Assembly (NCBI RefSeq): GCF_900167105.1
Contig: NZ_FUXE01000002.1
Span: 1 to 64,000 of the forward strand
Reading direction: 5' to 3'
Source of the DNA: Porphyromonas circumdentaria
GTDB taxonomy: Bacteria; Bacteroidota; Bacteroidia; Bacteroidales; Porphyromonadaceae
Length of the DNA stretch: 64,000 bases
Made by a program: the position numbers and the translations under genes. The notes under the pieces were generated by a model that ran no database searches, was not told the origin of the DNA, and saw nothing but the letters and a program-made list of their open reading frames with translations. Positions 25,599 through 28,685 of this stretch are shown piece by piece; position 1 is the stretch's first letter, and each line of letters opens with the position of its first letter.

Positions 25599-28500
25599 AT
25601 GGATACTCTATATATCATTATCTGTGCCGTACTCTCTCTCTTGGTGATGCTCGGCATATCTTTTATGAGCAAGGTACCTCGTGCTTCCTTTGGGAATTTA
25701 TTGAGTGCTTTTGCCATACTTTTCGGTGTTGTGTTTACTCTTTTAACTACAAAAAACAGTGATGGCACACCCATTATTACAGCGTGGACACTCTACCCCT
25801 CTATTATCATAGGAGCTCTCATCGGGGGGCTTTTTGCACAGCGTGTGCGAATGATACAGATGCCTCAATTGGTTGCTTTACTTAACGGATTAGGAGGGGC
25901 GGCTTCGGCACTGGTAGGTATCCTCTCAGTAGCAGGTATTGGCAATATATCTTCCGAGCAACAGGGAGCTTTCGAACTCCTAACAGGTTATCTCGCCATC
26001 GGTGTGGGTATGATTACCCTCGTGGGCAGCCTTGTTGCAGCGGGGAAATTACACCGTTTACTGTCTCAAAGACCTCAAGTGTGGGCCTATCACTCCATGG
26101 TGACCATGCTCTCTTTGGCAGTTTTGGCTATATTCATACTGGTGGGGACTTTCAGTGGAGCAAAAGATACTCCTCTTTTCTGGCTCGTTATAGGTACTAC
26201 TCTTTTCTCTTCTATCTTCGGGCTCTATTTCTCTGTCCGTGTAGGGGGGGCAGATATGCCTATCACTATATCTTTGCTCAACTCTTTAAGTGGGGTGGCA
26301 GGAGCCATAGCAGGTATGGCTATCAACAACGTACTTTTGGTAGCAGTGGGAGGTATTGTTGGAGCATCGGGATTGCTTTTAACGCAAATTATGTGTAGAG
26401 CTATGAACCGTAGTCTTCTCTCCATTCTGCTCGGTGGCAAAAGTTCTGCTCCTCTTAAGAAACCTACTTCTGCCCCCAAAACAGGAATTCCATCGACGAC
26501 AAATACAGTAGCAGAGAAAAAAGAAGTTTCTGCAGGAGCTGTATTGGCACACGCCAAAGAGGTAATCATCGTACCAGGATATGGTATGGCATTGGCACAA
26601 GCACAGCACGAAGTAAAGCAGTTGGCAGACAAGTTACGCTCCGAAGGAGCTCGCGTGCGTTTTGCTATCCACCCTGTAGCAGGTCGTATGCCAGGACATA
26701 TGAATGTACTTTTGGCAGAGGCTAACGTACCCTATGAAGATCTCTACGAAATGGAGGCTATCAATGATGACTTCGCCAAGTGCGATGCTGTCGTAGTTAT
26801 CGGAGCTAACGACGTATTGAACCCTGCAGCTCGCGATGCCGAGGGAACTCCTATTTACGAAATGCCTGTACTCAATGTAGATAAAGCTCCTTTTGTTGTA
26901 ATCTGCAACTATGACCTCAAACCAGGTTATGCAGGAGTTGATAACCCATTATACTTCAGAAAAGAGGGCGTTGCTCTTATGACAGGCGATGCCAAGGAAT
27001 CTCTTGCTCAACTCACTACTCTGTTACAACAAGCTAAACGAAAAGAAGCTCCCAAGACAAAACAAGAAACGGGCGTAAGTGATGCCAATCGTTTGGCAAA
27101 TGCTAAGAGGGTTATTATCGTTCCTGGCTACGGTATGGCATTGGCACAAGCACAGCATGAGGTGAAACAGCTGGCAGACAAGCTCCGCTCCAATGGTGCA
27201 GAAGTGCGTTTTGCTATCCACCCTGTAGCAGGTCGTATGCCAGGACACATGAATGTGCTTTTGGCAGAGGCTAACGTGCCCTATGAAGATCTCTACGAAA
27301 TGGAGGCTATCAACGATGACTTCGCCAAGTGCGATGCTGTTGTAGTTATCGGAGCTAACGACGTTTTAAACCCTGCTGCACGAGAGGCAGAAGGTACTCC
27401 TATCTATGGTATGCCCGTACTGAACGTAGACAAAGCTCCCTTTGTGGTTATTTGTAACTACGACTTAAAACCAGGATATGCAGGAGTTGATAACTCTCTT
27501 TATACACGTTCCGAAGGCATTTGGCTACTCACAGGCGATGCTAAAGAAAGCCTTGCACATCTTTTGAATGCCGTACAAGGCGAGTGGGCTATACCTCACA
27601 TGCAGGAAGAGGCAGCCACAACCGAAATTACCCCTGGAGGGTATTTGCGATCGGCCAAGCGAGTTATCGTTGTACCTGGTTATGGCATGGCATTGGCACA
27701 AGCACAGCACGAAGTAAAGCAGTTAGCAGATAAACTTCGTTCTCATGGAGCCGATGTGCGCTTTGCTATCCACCCTGTAGCAGGTCGCATGCCAGGGCAC
27801 ATGAATGTGCTTTTGGCAGAGGCTAACGTGCCCTATGAAGATTTATACGAGATGGAGGCCATAAACGACGATTTTGCTACTTGCGATGCCGTAGTTGTTA
27901 TCGGAGCCAACGACGTTTTGAACCCCGCGGCACGAGAAGCAGAGGGTACTCCTATCTATGGTATGCCCGTACTCAATGTAGACCAAGCTCCCTATATAGT
28001 AATCTGTAACTATGACTTGAAGCCTGGCTATGCAGGAGTAGAAAATCCGCTCTATACACGTTCCGAGGGGGTTGCTCTTATGACGGGCGATGCCAAAGAG
28101 AGTGTGGCAAAACTATCTCAGCAAATTGATGAGTGGAAAGAGCATACTCCCTCCACAGCAAAAGCTACTTCCTCCCCAAACTCTTTTGAGATGTGGATGA
28201 AAGAAGCTAAGAATGTGATTATCGTACCAGGCTATGGTATGGCATTGGCACAAGCACAGCATGAGGTAAAACAGTTAGCCGATAAATTGCGCAACCGTGG
28301 AGCCGATGTACGCTTTGCCATCCACCCCGTGGCAGGTCGTATGCCAGGACACATGAACGTTCTTTTGGCAGAAGCGAATGTTCCCTATGAAGATCTCTAT
28401 GAAATGGAGGCAATCAATGGAGATTTTGCCAAAGCCGATCTTGCCATCGTAGTGGGTGCTAACGACGTTTTGAACCCTGCTGCTCGCGATGCCGAGGGGA

Positions 28501-28685
28501 CACCTATTTACGGTATGCCCGTACTCAATGTAGACCAAACCGAGCATATCGTGATTTGCAACTACGATTTGAACCCTGGTTATGCTGGCGTAGAGAATCC
28601 TCTTTACACACGTTCAGAAGGAGTCGTGCTCCTTACGGGAGATGCAAAAGATAGCTTAGCAAAGCTTAACGCAGCATTAATCTAA
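25599..28685 (+). CDS. pntB: NAD(P) transhydrogenase subunit beta with four tandem dIII domains
   Basis: A 1028-residue protein, more than twice the usual length of about 460. Residues 1-280 are an ordinary dII domain of about nine membrane helices. They are followed not by one but by four complete NADP(H)-binding dIII domains. The first strand motif V(I/V)IVPGYGMALAQAQ begins at residues 322, 505, 689 and 873, a period of 183-184 residues. Every copy keeps FAIHPVAGRMPGHMNVLLAEANVPY, GANDVLNPAAR, GTPIY-MPVLNVD and GYAGV. Linkers of about 30 hydrophilic residues between copies differ. The reading frame is uninterrupted and a strong terminator follows, so this is a single protein as sequenced. 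The nucleotide loop reads CNYDL(K/N)PGYAGV instead of the KRS loop of E. coli. Expected role: proton-driven hydride transfer between NADH and NADP+; why four dIII domains are present is unknown. Confidence 0.92.
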   Translation: MDTLYIIICAVLSLLVMLGISFMSKVPRASFGNLLSAFAILFGVVFTLLTTKNSDGTPIITAWTLYPSIIIGALIGGLFAQRVRMIQMPQLVALLNGLGGAASALVGILSVAGIGNISSEQQGAFELLTGYLAIGVGMITLVGSLVAAGKLHRLLSQRPQVWAYHSMVTMLSLAVLAIFILVGTFSGAKDTPLFWLVIGTTLFSSIFGLYFSVRVGGADMPITISLLNSLSGVAGAIAGMAINNVLLVAVGGIVGASGLLLTQIMCRAMNRSLLSILLGGKSSAPLKKPTSAPKTGIPSTTNTVAEKKEVSAGAVLAHAKEVIIVPGYGMALAQAQHEVKQLADKLRSEGARVRFAIHPVAGRMPGHMNVLLAEANVPYEDLYEMEAINDDFAKCDAVVVIGANDVLNPAARDAEGTPIYEMPVLNVDKAPFVVICNYDLKPGYAGVDNPLYFRKEGVALMTGDAKESLAQLTTLLQQAKRKEAPKTKQETGVSDANRLANAKRVIIVPGYGMALAQAQHEVKQLADKLRSNGAEVRFAIHPVAGRMPGHMNVLLAEANVPYEDLYEMEAINDDFAKCDAVVVIGANDVLNPAAREAEGTPIYGMPVLNVDKAPFVVICNYDLKPGYAGVDNSLYTRSEGIWLLTGDAKESLAHLLNAVQGEWAIPHMQEEAATTEITPGGYLRSAKRVIVVPGYGMALAQAQHEVKQLADKLRSHGADVRFAIHPVAGRMPGHMNVLLAEANVPYEDLYEMEAINDDFATCDAVVVIGANDVLNPAAREAEGTPIYGMPVLNVDQAPYIVICNYDLKPGYAGVENPLYTRSEGVALMTGDAKESVAKLSQQIDEWKEHTPSTAKATSSPNSFEMWMKEAKNVIIVPGYGMALAQAQHEVKQLADKLRNRGADVRFAIHPVAGRMPGHMNVLLAEANVPYEDLYEMEAINGDFAKADLAIVVGANDVLNPAARDAEGTPIYGMPVLNVDQTEHIVICNYDLNPGYAGVENPLYTRSEGVVLLTGDAKDSLAKLNAALI
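26562..28671 (+). repeat. Four in-frame tandem repeats encoding the dIII domains of PntB
   Basis: Units start at 26562, 27111, 27663 and 28215 (period 549-552 bases). Conservation reaches the DNA: between units 1 and 2 a 107-base block (26709-26815 and 27258-27364) differs at only three positions. Linkers between units are not alike. Confidence 0.95.

Follow-up and report, generated by a model that had tools for sequence, protein, structure and literature searches.

What does a proton-translocating transhydrogenase (Pnt) complex do with four dIII domains on a single beta subunit? The question is raised by a stretch of 64,000 nucleotides of Porphyromonas circumdentaria DNA (contig NZ_FUXE01000002.1, positions 1 to 64,000; hereafter the window), in which three pnt genes lie in the same direction at 24008-28685 and encode the dI subunit, the membrane subunit alpha2 and the beta subunit PntB (Pfam AlaDh_PNT, PNTB_4TM and PNTB, respectively). 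PntB consists of the membrane part dII followed by dIII, and passages of PMC5742237 describe the two dIII of an ordinary Pnt dimer as alternating between dI and dII. A sequence-only reading of the window had drawn attention to the four dIII. The finding is real and larger than first stated, because the locus represents a recurrent multi-dIII Pnt type with an altered nucleotide loop and a dI resembling an amino-acid dehydrogenase; the altered loop E, the neighbouring dI and the recurrence of the architecture had been overlooked. We assign a probability of about 0.4 to the reading that the locus is a member of a distinct type of Pnt (dI-dII-dIII) complexes, here called N-x-D after its loop E, which has four tandem dIII per beta subunit and would carry out a proton-coupled nicotinamide adenine dinucleotide (NAD(H)) hydride relay on an amino or oxo acid.

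Four dIII domains in one PntB frame

The pntB frame begins with ATG and runs for 1028 codons without an internal stop. PF02233 and NF006974 each match it in four stretches, which confirms four complete dIII in one frame, and the proposed dIII starts at residues 322, 505, 689 and 873 fit the computed spans (the motif VPGYGMALAQAQ begins at 325, 508, 692 and 876). The family scores, both of which sum over the four dIII, were 950 bits for NF006974 (cut-off 689) and 1291 bits for PF02233 (cut-off 31.7), and all four PF02233 matches in the genome (2.03 Mb, 35 contigs) sit inside this frame.

At the DNA level the array appears as four repeats of 300 nt with 80-87% identity to the reference copy and spacings of 549, 552 and 552, and the encoded dIII share 129-140 of 155 residues (83-90%). 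Pairwise nonsynonymous divergence (dN) between window copies was 0.08-0.14 and synonymous divergence (dS) 0.91-2.5; the copies are therefore too diverged at silent sites to be a copy-paste of one repeat, and all four are under purifying selection. The earlier statement that none is a decaying duplicate stands, as decay is excluded by intact motifs and by a dN far smaller than dS for each pair of window copies. Porphyromonas gingivicanis (L036) also has four dIII, in a frame broken once in that draft assembly. In a dIII tree each window copy was nearest by path to the same-numbered P. gingivicanis copy (copy 4 with copy 4, 99*; copies 1 and 3 with their counterparts, 92 each), while the fork joining the two copies 2 lacks resolution. 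Between same-numbered copies dN was 0.019-0.032, the lowest of each row, and dS was 1.48-1.75 in three pairs and not computable for copy 2; in plain DNA identity window copy 2 scored 0.813 with P. gingivicanis copy 3 and slightly less, 0.796, with copy 2. Because of the pairing in the tree and the lowest dN between same-numbered copies, the four-dIII array most likely predates the split of the two species, with selection keeping each copy.

An AlphaFold2 (AF2) model of copies 1-2 contains two folded dIII (most ten-residue blocks at 85-97; predicted template modelling score 0.53) and a low-confidence hinge (<50) at fragment residues 185-192. One dIII of the model resembles solved dIII structures, with 2fsv_C as the best match.

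Two kinds of loop E

According to passages of PMC9529548, KRS (residues 424-426) of the E. coli enzyme lies in the NADPH site, and it is loops D and E that select NADP(H) rather than NAD(H). The sequence-only reading held that every copy keeps the main family motifs; this is correct for PGYGMA, HPVAGRMPGH, GANDV.NPAA and GYAGV and incorrect for loop E, where all four window copies read NYD in place of the KRS or KRG of NADP(H)-specific transhydrogenase. None of the four copies has the K-R-S/G loop characteristic of NADP(H) sites, so that the reading's descriptions of the domains as NADP(H)-binding and of the array as an NADP(H) buffer are doubtful. NADP(H)-specific transhydrogenase is classified as EC 7.1.1.1 and has one dIII, whereas the window PntB has four. 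On the sequence we do not class the locus as a strict NADP(H) transhydrogenase, since a defining feature was looked for and was absent.

Loop-E reads over the loci, some of which overlap, gave NYD 165, NFD 87, NLD 46, NRD 1 and NMD 1 against KRS 49 and KRG 11, with 34 unread. Counted by source (233 including the window), the loop was uniformly N-x-D in 147 and uniformly K-R in 77; no source mixed the two, and 9 went unread. Loop E forms two kinds without intermediates. A position-by-position comparison of the two kinds found no basic residue that is invariant in N-x-D dIII only; the N and D percentages in this comparison and in a survey of 225 unique N-x-D copies follow from sorting or searching by loop and were not counted as evidence, unlike the loop reads and source counts above, the dI residue counts and the later check of 20 loci given below. 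One two-dIII PntB frame (L262, genome G956) has NRD loops, in which the Arg of KRS is retained and flanked by N and D; it is a natural test case for the residue that governs nucleotide choice.

Two residues of the PntB membrane part also stood out in the N-x-D type. R214, beside the GGADMP motif, is present in 99% of N-x-D sequences, with mostly P or A in ordinary PntB, and H165 is present in 91%; these residues may mark a changed proton path.

dIII number and tether length

Among 169 unique, complete PntB frames that include the membrane part, a count that omits frames cut by a locus end and so underestimates four-dIII proteins, ordinary PntB had one dIII in 60 of 60, N-x-D PntB had one, two, three or four dIII in 47, 32, 25 and 4 frames, respectively, and one frame was unread. 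That a beta subunit has one dIII, as the sequence-only reading assumed, is thus true of the ordinary type and untrue of the N-x-D type, in which 61 of 108 complete frames have 2-4. Five of the 47 single-dIII N-x-D frames (L014, L017, L032, L113 and L214) are probably broken arrays, with additional dIII elsewhere in the locus, in a different frame. A later check used 20 further loci, picked by copy number or score and with loops read afterwards; all 6 multi-dIII loci read N-x-D and all 14 single-dIII loci, two of them cut short, read KRS or KRG. In every locus read, multi-dIII PntB was confined to the N-x-D type.

The stretch between dII and dIII (MNR to PGYG) was read in 33 of the 60 K-R frames and, for N-x-D frames with 1, 2, 3 and 4 dIII, in 44/47, 31/32, 24/25 and 4/4. 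It spans 50-57 residues in the ordinary frames; in the 44 single-dIII N-x-D frames it spans 87-112 residues in 28 and 55-68 in 16. Since both copy number and tether length vary, the N-x-D type has changed the reach or number of its dIII repeatedly. Single-dIII PntBs with the long stretch of 87-112 residues were seen in Prevotella and other Bacteroidales (L077, L078, L081, L084-L088, L096, L103, L112 and similar loci), and the four longest dII-dIII stretches have heptad-like inserts, as judged by eye.

The dI subunit

Passages of PMC10401832 and PMC4691113 on L-alanine dehydrogenase (AlaDH) have Arg15 and Lys75 holding pyruvate and name His95/96 and Asp270 as active-site residues; those of PMC10401832 report that replacement of Arg15, Lys75, His96 and Asp269 by Ala abolished activity. 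The window pntAA product has K73/K75, H102, D298-Q299, R15, the RQD loop (R130/Q135/D138) and D205, and its R15, K75, H102 and D298 coincide with the AlaDH residues in an alignment with 12 AlaDH sequences. The invariant AlaDH residues aligned with dI His102 and Asp298 are His96 and Asp270 in M. tuberculosis numbering.

The dI sequences were not used to sort the types. Rows covering <330 model positions were dropped, leaving 196 rows and 171 unique Pnt cores, and 12 of 20 AlaDH loci passed the open reading frame (ORF) filter. K75, H102 and D298 occurred together in 111/111 unique N-x-D dI and 12/12 AlaDH, as against 0/60 ordinary (K-R) dI. Over 121 N-x-D, 75 K-R and 12 AlaDH sequences, N-x-D dI had K73, K75, E76, P77, H102, D298, Q299, N324, P326 and T334 at 99-100%, as in AlaDH; K-R dI mostly kept P77 and kept K73, N324 and P326 in part, with K75, H102 and D298 never together. 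The RQD loop was present in 100% of N-x-D and K-R dI and not in AlaDH, and D205 was present in 100% of all three groups. In a dI tree built from 72 chosen rows and rooted on AlaDH, ordinary dI formed one clade (100*) on a long stem apart from N-x-D dI, which lay nearer the root as either a clade or a grade.

The window dI scored 374.8 bits against PRK09424 (cut-off 383) and 332 bits against pntA (cut-off 444.4), where both models span full PntA and the query is dI only. In the window genome (98% complete) the AlaDH model, which detects dI as well, matched pntAA alone, and a stand-alone AlaDH gave no match. The same genome has a single dI gene, which leaves the suggestion that the array lets several dI subunits bind without support. 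A raised local dIII concentration, which the sequence-only reading also suggested, may apply.

Taxonomic distribution

A homologue search by dIII count, as the sequence-only reading had proposed, found that multi-dIII PntB recurs in Bacteroidota and Bacillota. PF02233 matched 32 of 38 Porphyromonadaceae genomes sampled (31 above cut-off), 15 of them with fragmentary or broken frames and 17 with intact ones; the intact frames have two dIII in 4 genomes (658-698 residues), three in 8 (842-899 residues) and four in 5 (996-1032 residues). Relatives assembled as a single contig have three (G001, G005), two (G011) or four (G027) dIII in one frame, and a profile search of another such genome (G016) returned no PntB match. 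In a sample spread evenly over the phylum 178 of 395 genomes matched, with more than one match only in G000 (4) and G224 (2); in a sample of the order 105 of 393 matched, and multi-dIII frames were found in four further families (G543, G631, G723 and G732). In the phylum of a Bacillota match the A1 profile matched 49 of 398 genomes, with frames reaching 1023 residues.

A search for loci kept the best 80 of 276 matches and favours multi-dIII proteins, so that it is not a measure of prevalence. Among these 80, dIII counts were 4 in P. bennonis, 3 in P. uenonis and P. endodontalis, 2 in Hoylesella marshii, Parabacteroides and Massilibacteroides vaginae, 2 and 3 in Dysgonomonas, 1 in Phocaeicola oris, 1-2 in Prevotella and 2-4 in Bacillota genomes from metagenomes; the named locus nearest to the window was that of P. 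gingivicanis (89% in the best segment). A peculiarity of Porphyromonas is excluded by the multi-dIII PntB of Bacillota and of other Bacteroidota families. In one Bacillota group (L056, L075, L082, L083, L094, L097, L102 and L104) the last dIII and the first dIII formed two separate clades, a split that suggests different jobs for the two positions.

Comparison with known systems

The window resembles the transhydrogenases of T. thermophilus and R. rubrum (separate alpha1, alpha2 and beta) in its gene set dI - alpha2 - beta, its RQD loop and beta-subunit models above cut-off, and differs from them in having four dIII instead of one and K75/H102/D298 of AlaDH type in dI; every window dIII reads N-Y-D where T. 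thermophilus has K-R-G. E. coli PntAB shares the dII and dIII motifs (38% identity over the transmembrane part and first dIII), whereas it has one dIII, KRS, an MNR-PGYG stretch of 53 residues and no K75/H102/D298 set. Equivalents of Arg15, Lys75, His96 and Asp270 of L-alanine dehydrogenase (TIGR00518), together with Q299, N324, P326 and T334, are identical in N-x-D dI; unlike the window dI, however, AlaDH lacks the RQD loop, and the window dI is below the AlaDH cut-off and encoded with membrane subunits. The fused NNT of apicomplexans and other eukaryotes is likewise a rearrangement of Pnt domain order or number, but passages of PMC7614955 describe whole alpha-beta or beta-alpha fusions and gene duplications, and tandem dIII do not appear in them.

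Proposed mechanism and alternatives

In the hydride relay, the substrate reacting with NAD held in dI would be an amino acid, or a 2-oxo acid and ammonia when the complex runs backwards; a dIII loaded with NAD+ would dock in the same dI cleft and take the hydride; and this dIII would then depart and contact dII, where NADH would be exchanged for NAD+ with the passage of a proton through the membrane. Overall, the complex would catalyse amino acid + NAD+ + H+(out) <-> oxo acid + NH4+ + NADH + H+(in). This three-step scheme is the simplest consistent reading because dI is of the NAD type (D205), residues of AlaDH type would lie in its cleft and dIII lacks K-R; the architecture and the residues are observations, and the reaction is what we infer from them. 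Substrate and dIII would be competitors for a single dI cleft, so that several tethered dIII would speed hydride capture and let slow nucleotide exchange run in parallel, and the long tether of single-dIII members would perhaps be another answer to the same need. The oxidation of alanine with NAD+ as acceptor is energetically uphill and would call for proton-motive force; an anaerobic life on amino acids is common among these bacteria.

Several observations weigh against this relay. The strongest argument that NADP(H) binding has not been lost is a K or R one or two places past the motif D in 184 of the 225 unique N-x-D copies (present in window copies 1-3, absent from copy 4), a basic residue that could hold the 2'-phosphate. 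The window dI scores 189.2 bits against the AlaDH model TIGR00518, below its cut-off of 391.85, and is nearest in sequence to the transhydrogenase dI of Thermus (T. thermophilus) and R. rubrum; its AF2 model (predicted local distance difference test 84.5) has R. rubrum transhydrogenase dI as its best PDB fold match. Arg15 does not discriminate, because ordinary dI keeps it too (36/36 K-R and 93/93 N-x-D where covered). A pool of NAD(H) shared by dI and dIII would waste proton-motive force unless exchange at dI were gated, and no gating was seen. Function does not require several dIII, as the existence of single-dIII N-x-D enzymes shows, and the gene neighbours are of little help, the link to diaminopimelate dehydrogenase (7/80 loci) being equally compatible with NADPH supply.

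The main rival explanation is a serious possibility, in our view only slightly less probable than the relay: the complex is still an NADH:NADP+ transhydrogenase whose dIII binds NADP(H) through a rebuilt loop (for example by N, D and the following Lys), the AlaDH-type residues of dI are an ancestral remnant or a regulator site, and the extra dIII only raise the local dIII concentration. The canonical GYGMA, HPVAGR, GAND and GYAGV of dIII, the RQD loop of dI and the presence of dII and alpha2 all agree with it, as does the K/R at +1 or +2, and the position of N-x-D dI nearer the root of the AlaDH-rooted tree means that the AlaDH residues may be ancestral. Such continuity with the ordinary enzyme sits poorly with a loop E in two kinds without intermediates, with a window copy 4 that lacks the following Lys and with the invariance in N-x-D dI of K75, H102 and D298, which are gone from ordinary dI, so that the fold does not need them. 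Improbable in our view is a metabolite-gated transhydrogenase, in which an oxo or amino acid in the AlaDH-type site would switch hydride transfer without turnover; AlaDH-type residues facing this cleft, as judged by analogy with AlaDH, would suit a gate, but the catalytic His and Asp are kept together with the binding residues.

The number of dIII could also be functionless, with unequal recombination growing and shrinking repeats that the N-x-D type merely tolerates. Relatives with 1 to 4 copies, arrays that are nearly identical internally (as in L009) and a dIII tree in which most copies cluster by genome, apart from the window and P. gingivicanis pair, speak for such turnover; we nevertheless think it unlikely, as each window copy is under strong purifying selection and matched to a P. 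gingivicanis copy, the split between N- and C-terminal copies in the Bacillota group is old, and no array was seen in ordinary PntB (60/60 single). Least credible of all, and rejected as a candidate, is an error of assembly or sequencing: a repeat unit of some 550 nt invites one, and assemblies of several draft relatives break inside the array, but silent-site divergence, the P. gingivicanis counterparts in another species' assembly and single-contig relatives with 2-4 copies contradict it. To extend the hydride relay to all N-x-D complexes, as a new class of proton-translocating amino-acid (2-oxo acid) dehydrogenases with NAD(H) on dI and on the dIII array in amino-acid-fermenting anaerobes, is a speculative step, which we hold to be doubtful.

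Locus features and gene neighbourhood

The coordinates of the pnt features are collected in Table 1.

Table 1. Features of the pnt locus in the P. circumdentaria window
Feature	Window position	Strand	Basis
pntAA: separate dI subunit, 385 aa	24008..25165	+	Pfam AlaDh_PNT_N/C
pntAB: alpha2 membrane subunit, 100 aa	25288..25590	+	PNTB_4TM, 1.1e-29
pntB: beta subunit, 1028 aa, membrane dII + four dIII	25599..28685	+	PF02233, NF006974 in four stretches each
dII membrane part of PntB, about residues 1-281	25599..26441	+	
dIII copy 1, residues 322-473	26562..27017	+	
dIII copy 2, residues 505-656	27111..27566	+	
dIII copy 3, residues 689-841	27663..28121	+	
dIII copy 4, residues 873-1024	28215..28670	+	
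Copy 1 loop E: N437-Y438-D439 replaces E. coli K424-R425-S426	26907..26915	+	
Copy 2 loop E: NYD replaces KRS	27456..27464	+	
Copy 3 loop E: NYD replaces KRS	28008..28016	+	
Copy 4 loop E: NYD replaces KRS; next residues L-N, not L-K	28560..28568	+	
Codon of dI Arg15 (AlaDH Arg15)	24050..24052	+	alignment; AlaDH roles from passages of PMC10401832
Codon of dI Lys75 (AlaDH Lys75)	24230..24232	+	alignment
Codon of dI His102, aligned with invariant AlaDH His	24311..24313	+	alignment
Codon of dI Asp298, aligned with invariant AlaDH Asp	24899..24901	+	alignment

In the seven loci with a diaminopimelate dehydrogenase gene, this gene adjoins pntAA upstream on the same strand (with a small ORF between them in L082). 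One of the seven products scored 328.6 bits against TIGR01921 (vs 180.6), and the other six are 58-78% identical to it. Such a gene might just as well reflect a demand for NADPH, and gene context was dropped as proof of function since this link points either way. One locus (L071) has ornithine cyclodeaminase and nicotinamidase genes upstream; these neighbours, like diaminopimelate dehydrogenase, have to do with amino acids and NAD. Beyond the pnt genes, the largest clusters in the context of the 80 loci, several of which end at contig ends, were one of mixed strand (14 loci) and two of minus-strand ORFs (9 and 7 loci). Passages of PMC5378342 report that the P. gingivalis transhydrogenase genes PGN_1120 and PGN_1122 are up-regulated in biofilm, so genes annotated as transhydrogenase are expressed in the genus.

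Directly downstream of pntB, at window 28926-30824 (+), lies a gene for a DUF4954 protein similar to hexapeptide repeats. AT-rich repeats with a core like TTGAATATACATATA, spaced by about 21 bp, gave 20 matches at <=2 mismatches, one of them isolated at 60140 and others in clusters spaced 9-13 kb apart (10597-10658, 23413-23471, 35651-35707, 46060-46121 and 54983-55039); one cluster falls between the 20829-22859 gene and pntAA. They are possibly regulatory or mobile repeats.

Significance

Among the matches listed in searches of open-licence PubMed Central papers, no description of a multi-dIII PntB and no paper on an AlaDH-like dI paired with PntB was found by title or start of abstract. The N-x-D type, which as a dimer would have as many as eight dIII, tests whether dIII alternation is obligatory, and it may show how a soluble amino-acid dehydrogenase joined a proton pump. 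If the proposed class is true, proton-motive force would drive uphill oxidative deamination, or energy would be conserved from reductive amination. The N-x-D loop and the AlaDH residues of dI suggest that genes annotated as NADPH-making transhydrogenase in Porphyromonas, Prevotella, Dysgonomonas and Clostridia may have a different task; if so, models of redox and energy metabolism for bacteria of the gut and mouth would change.

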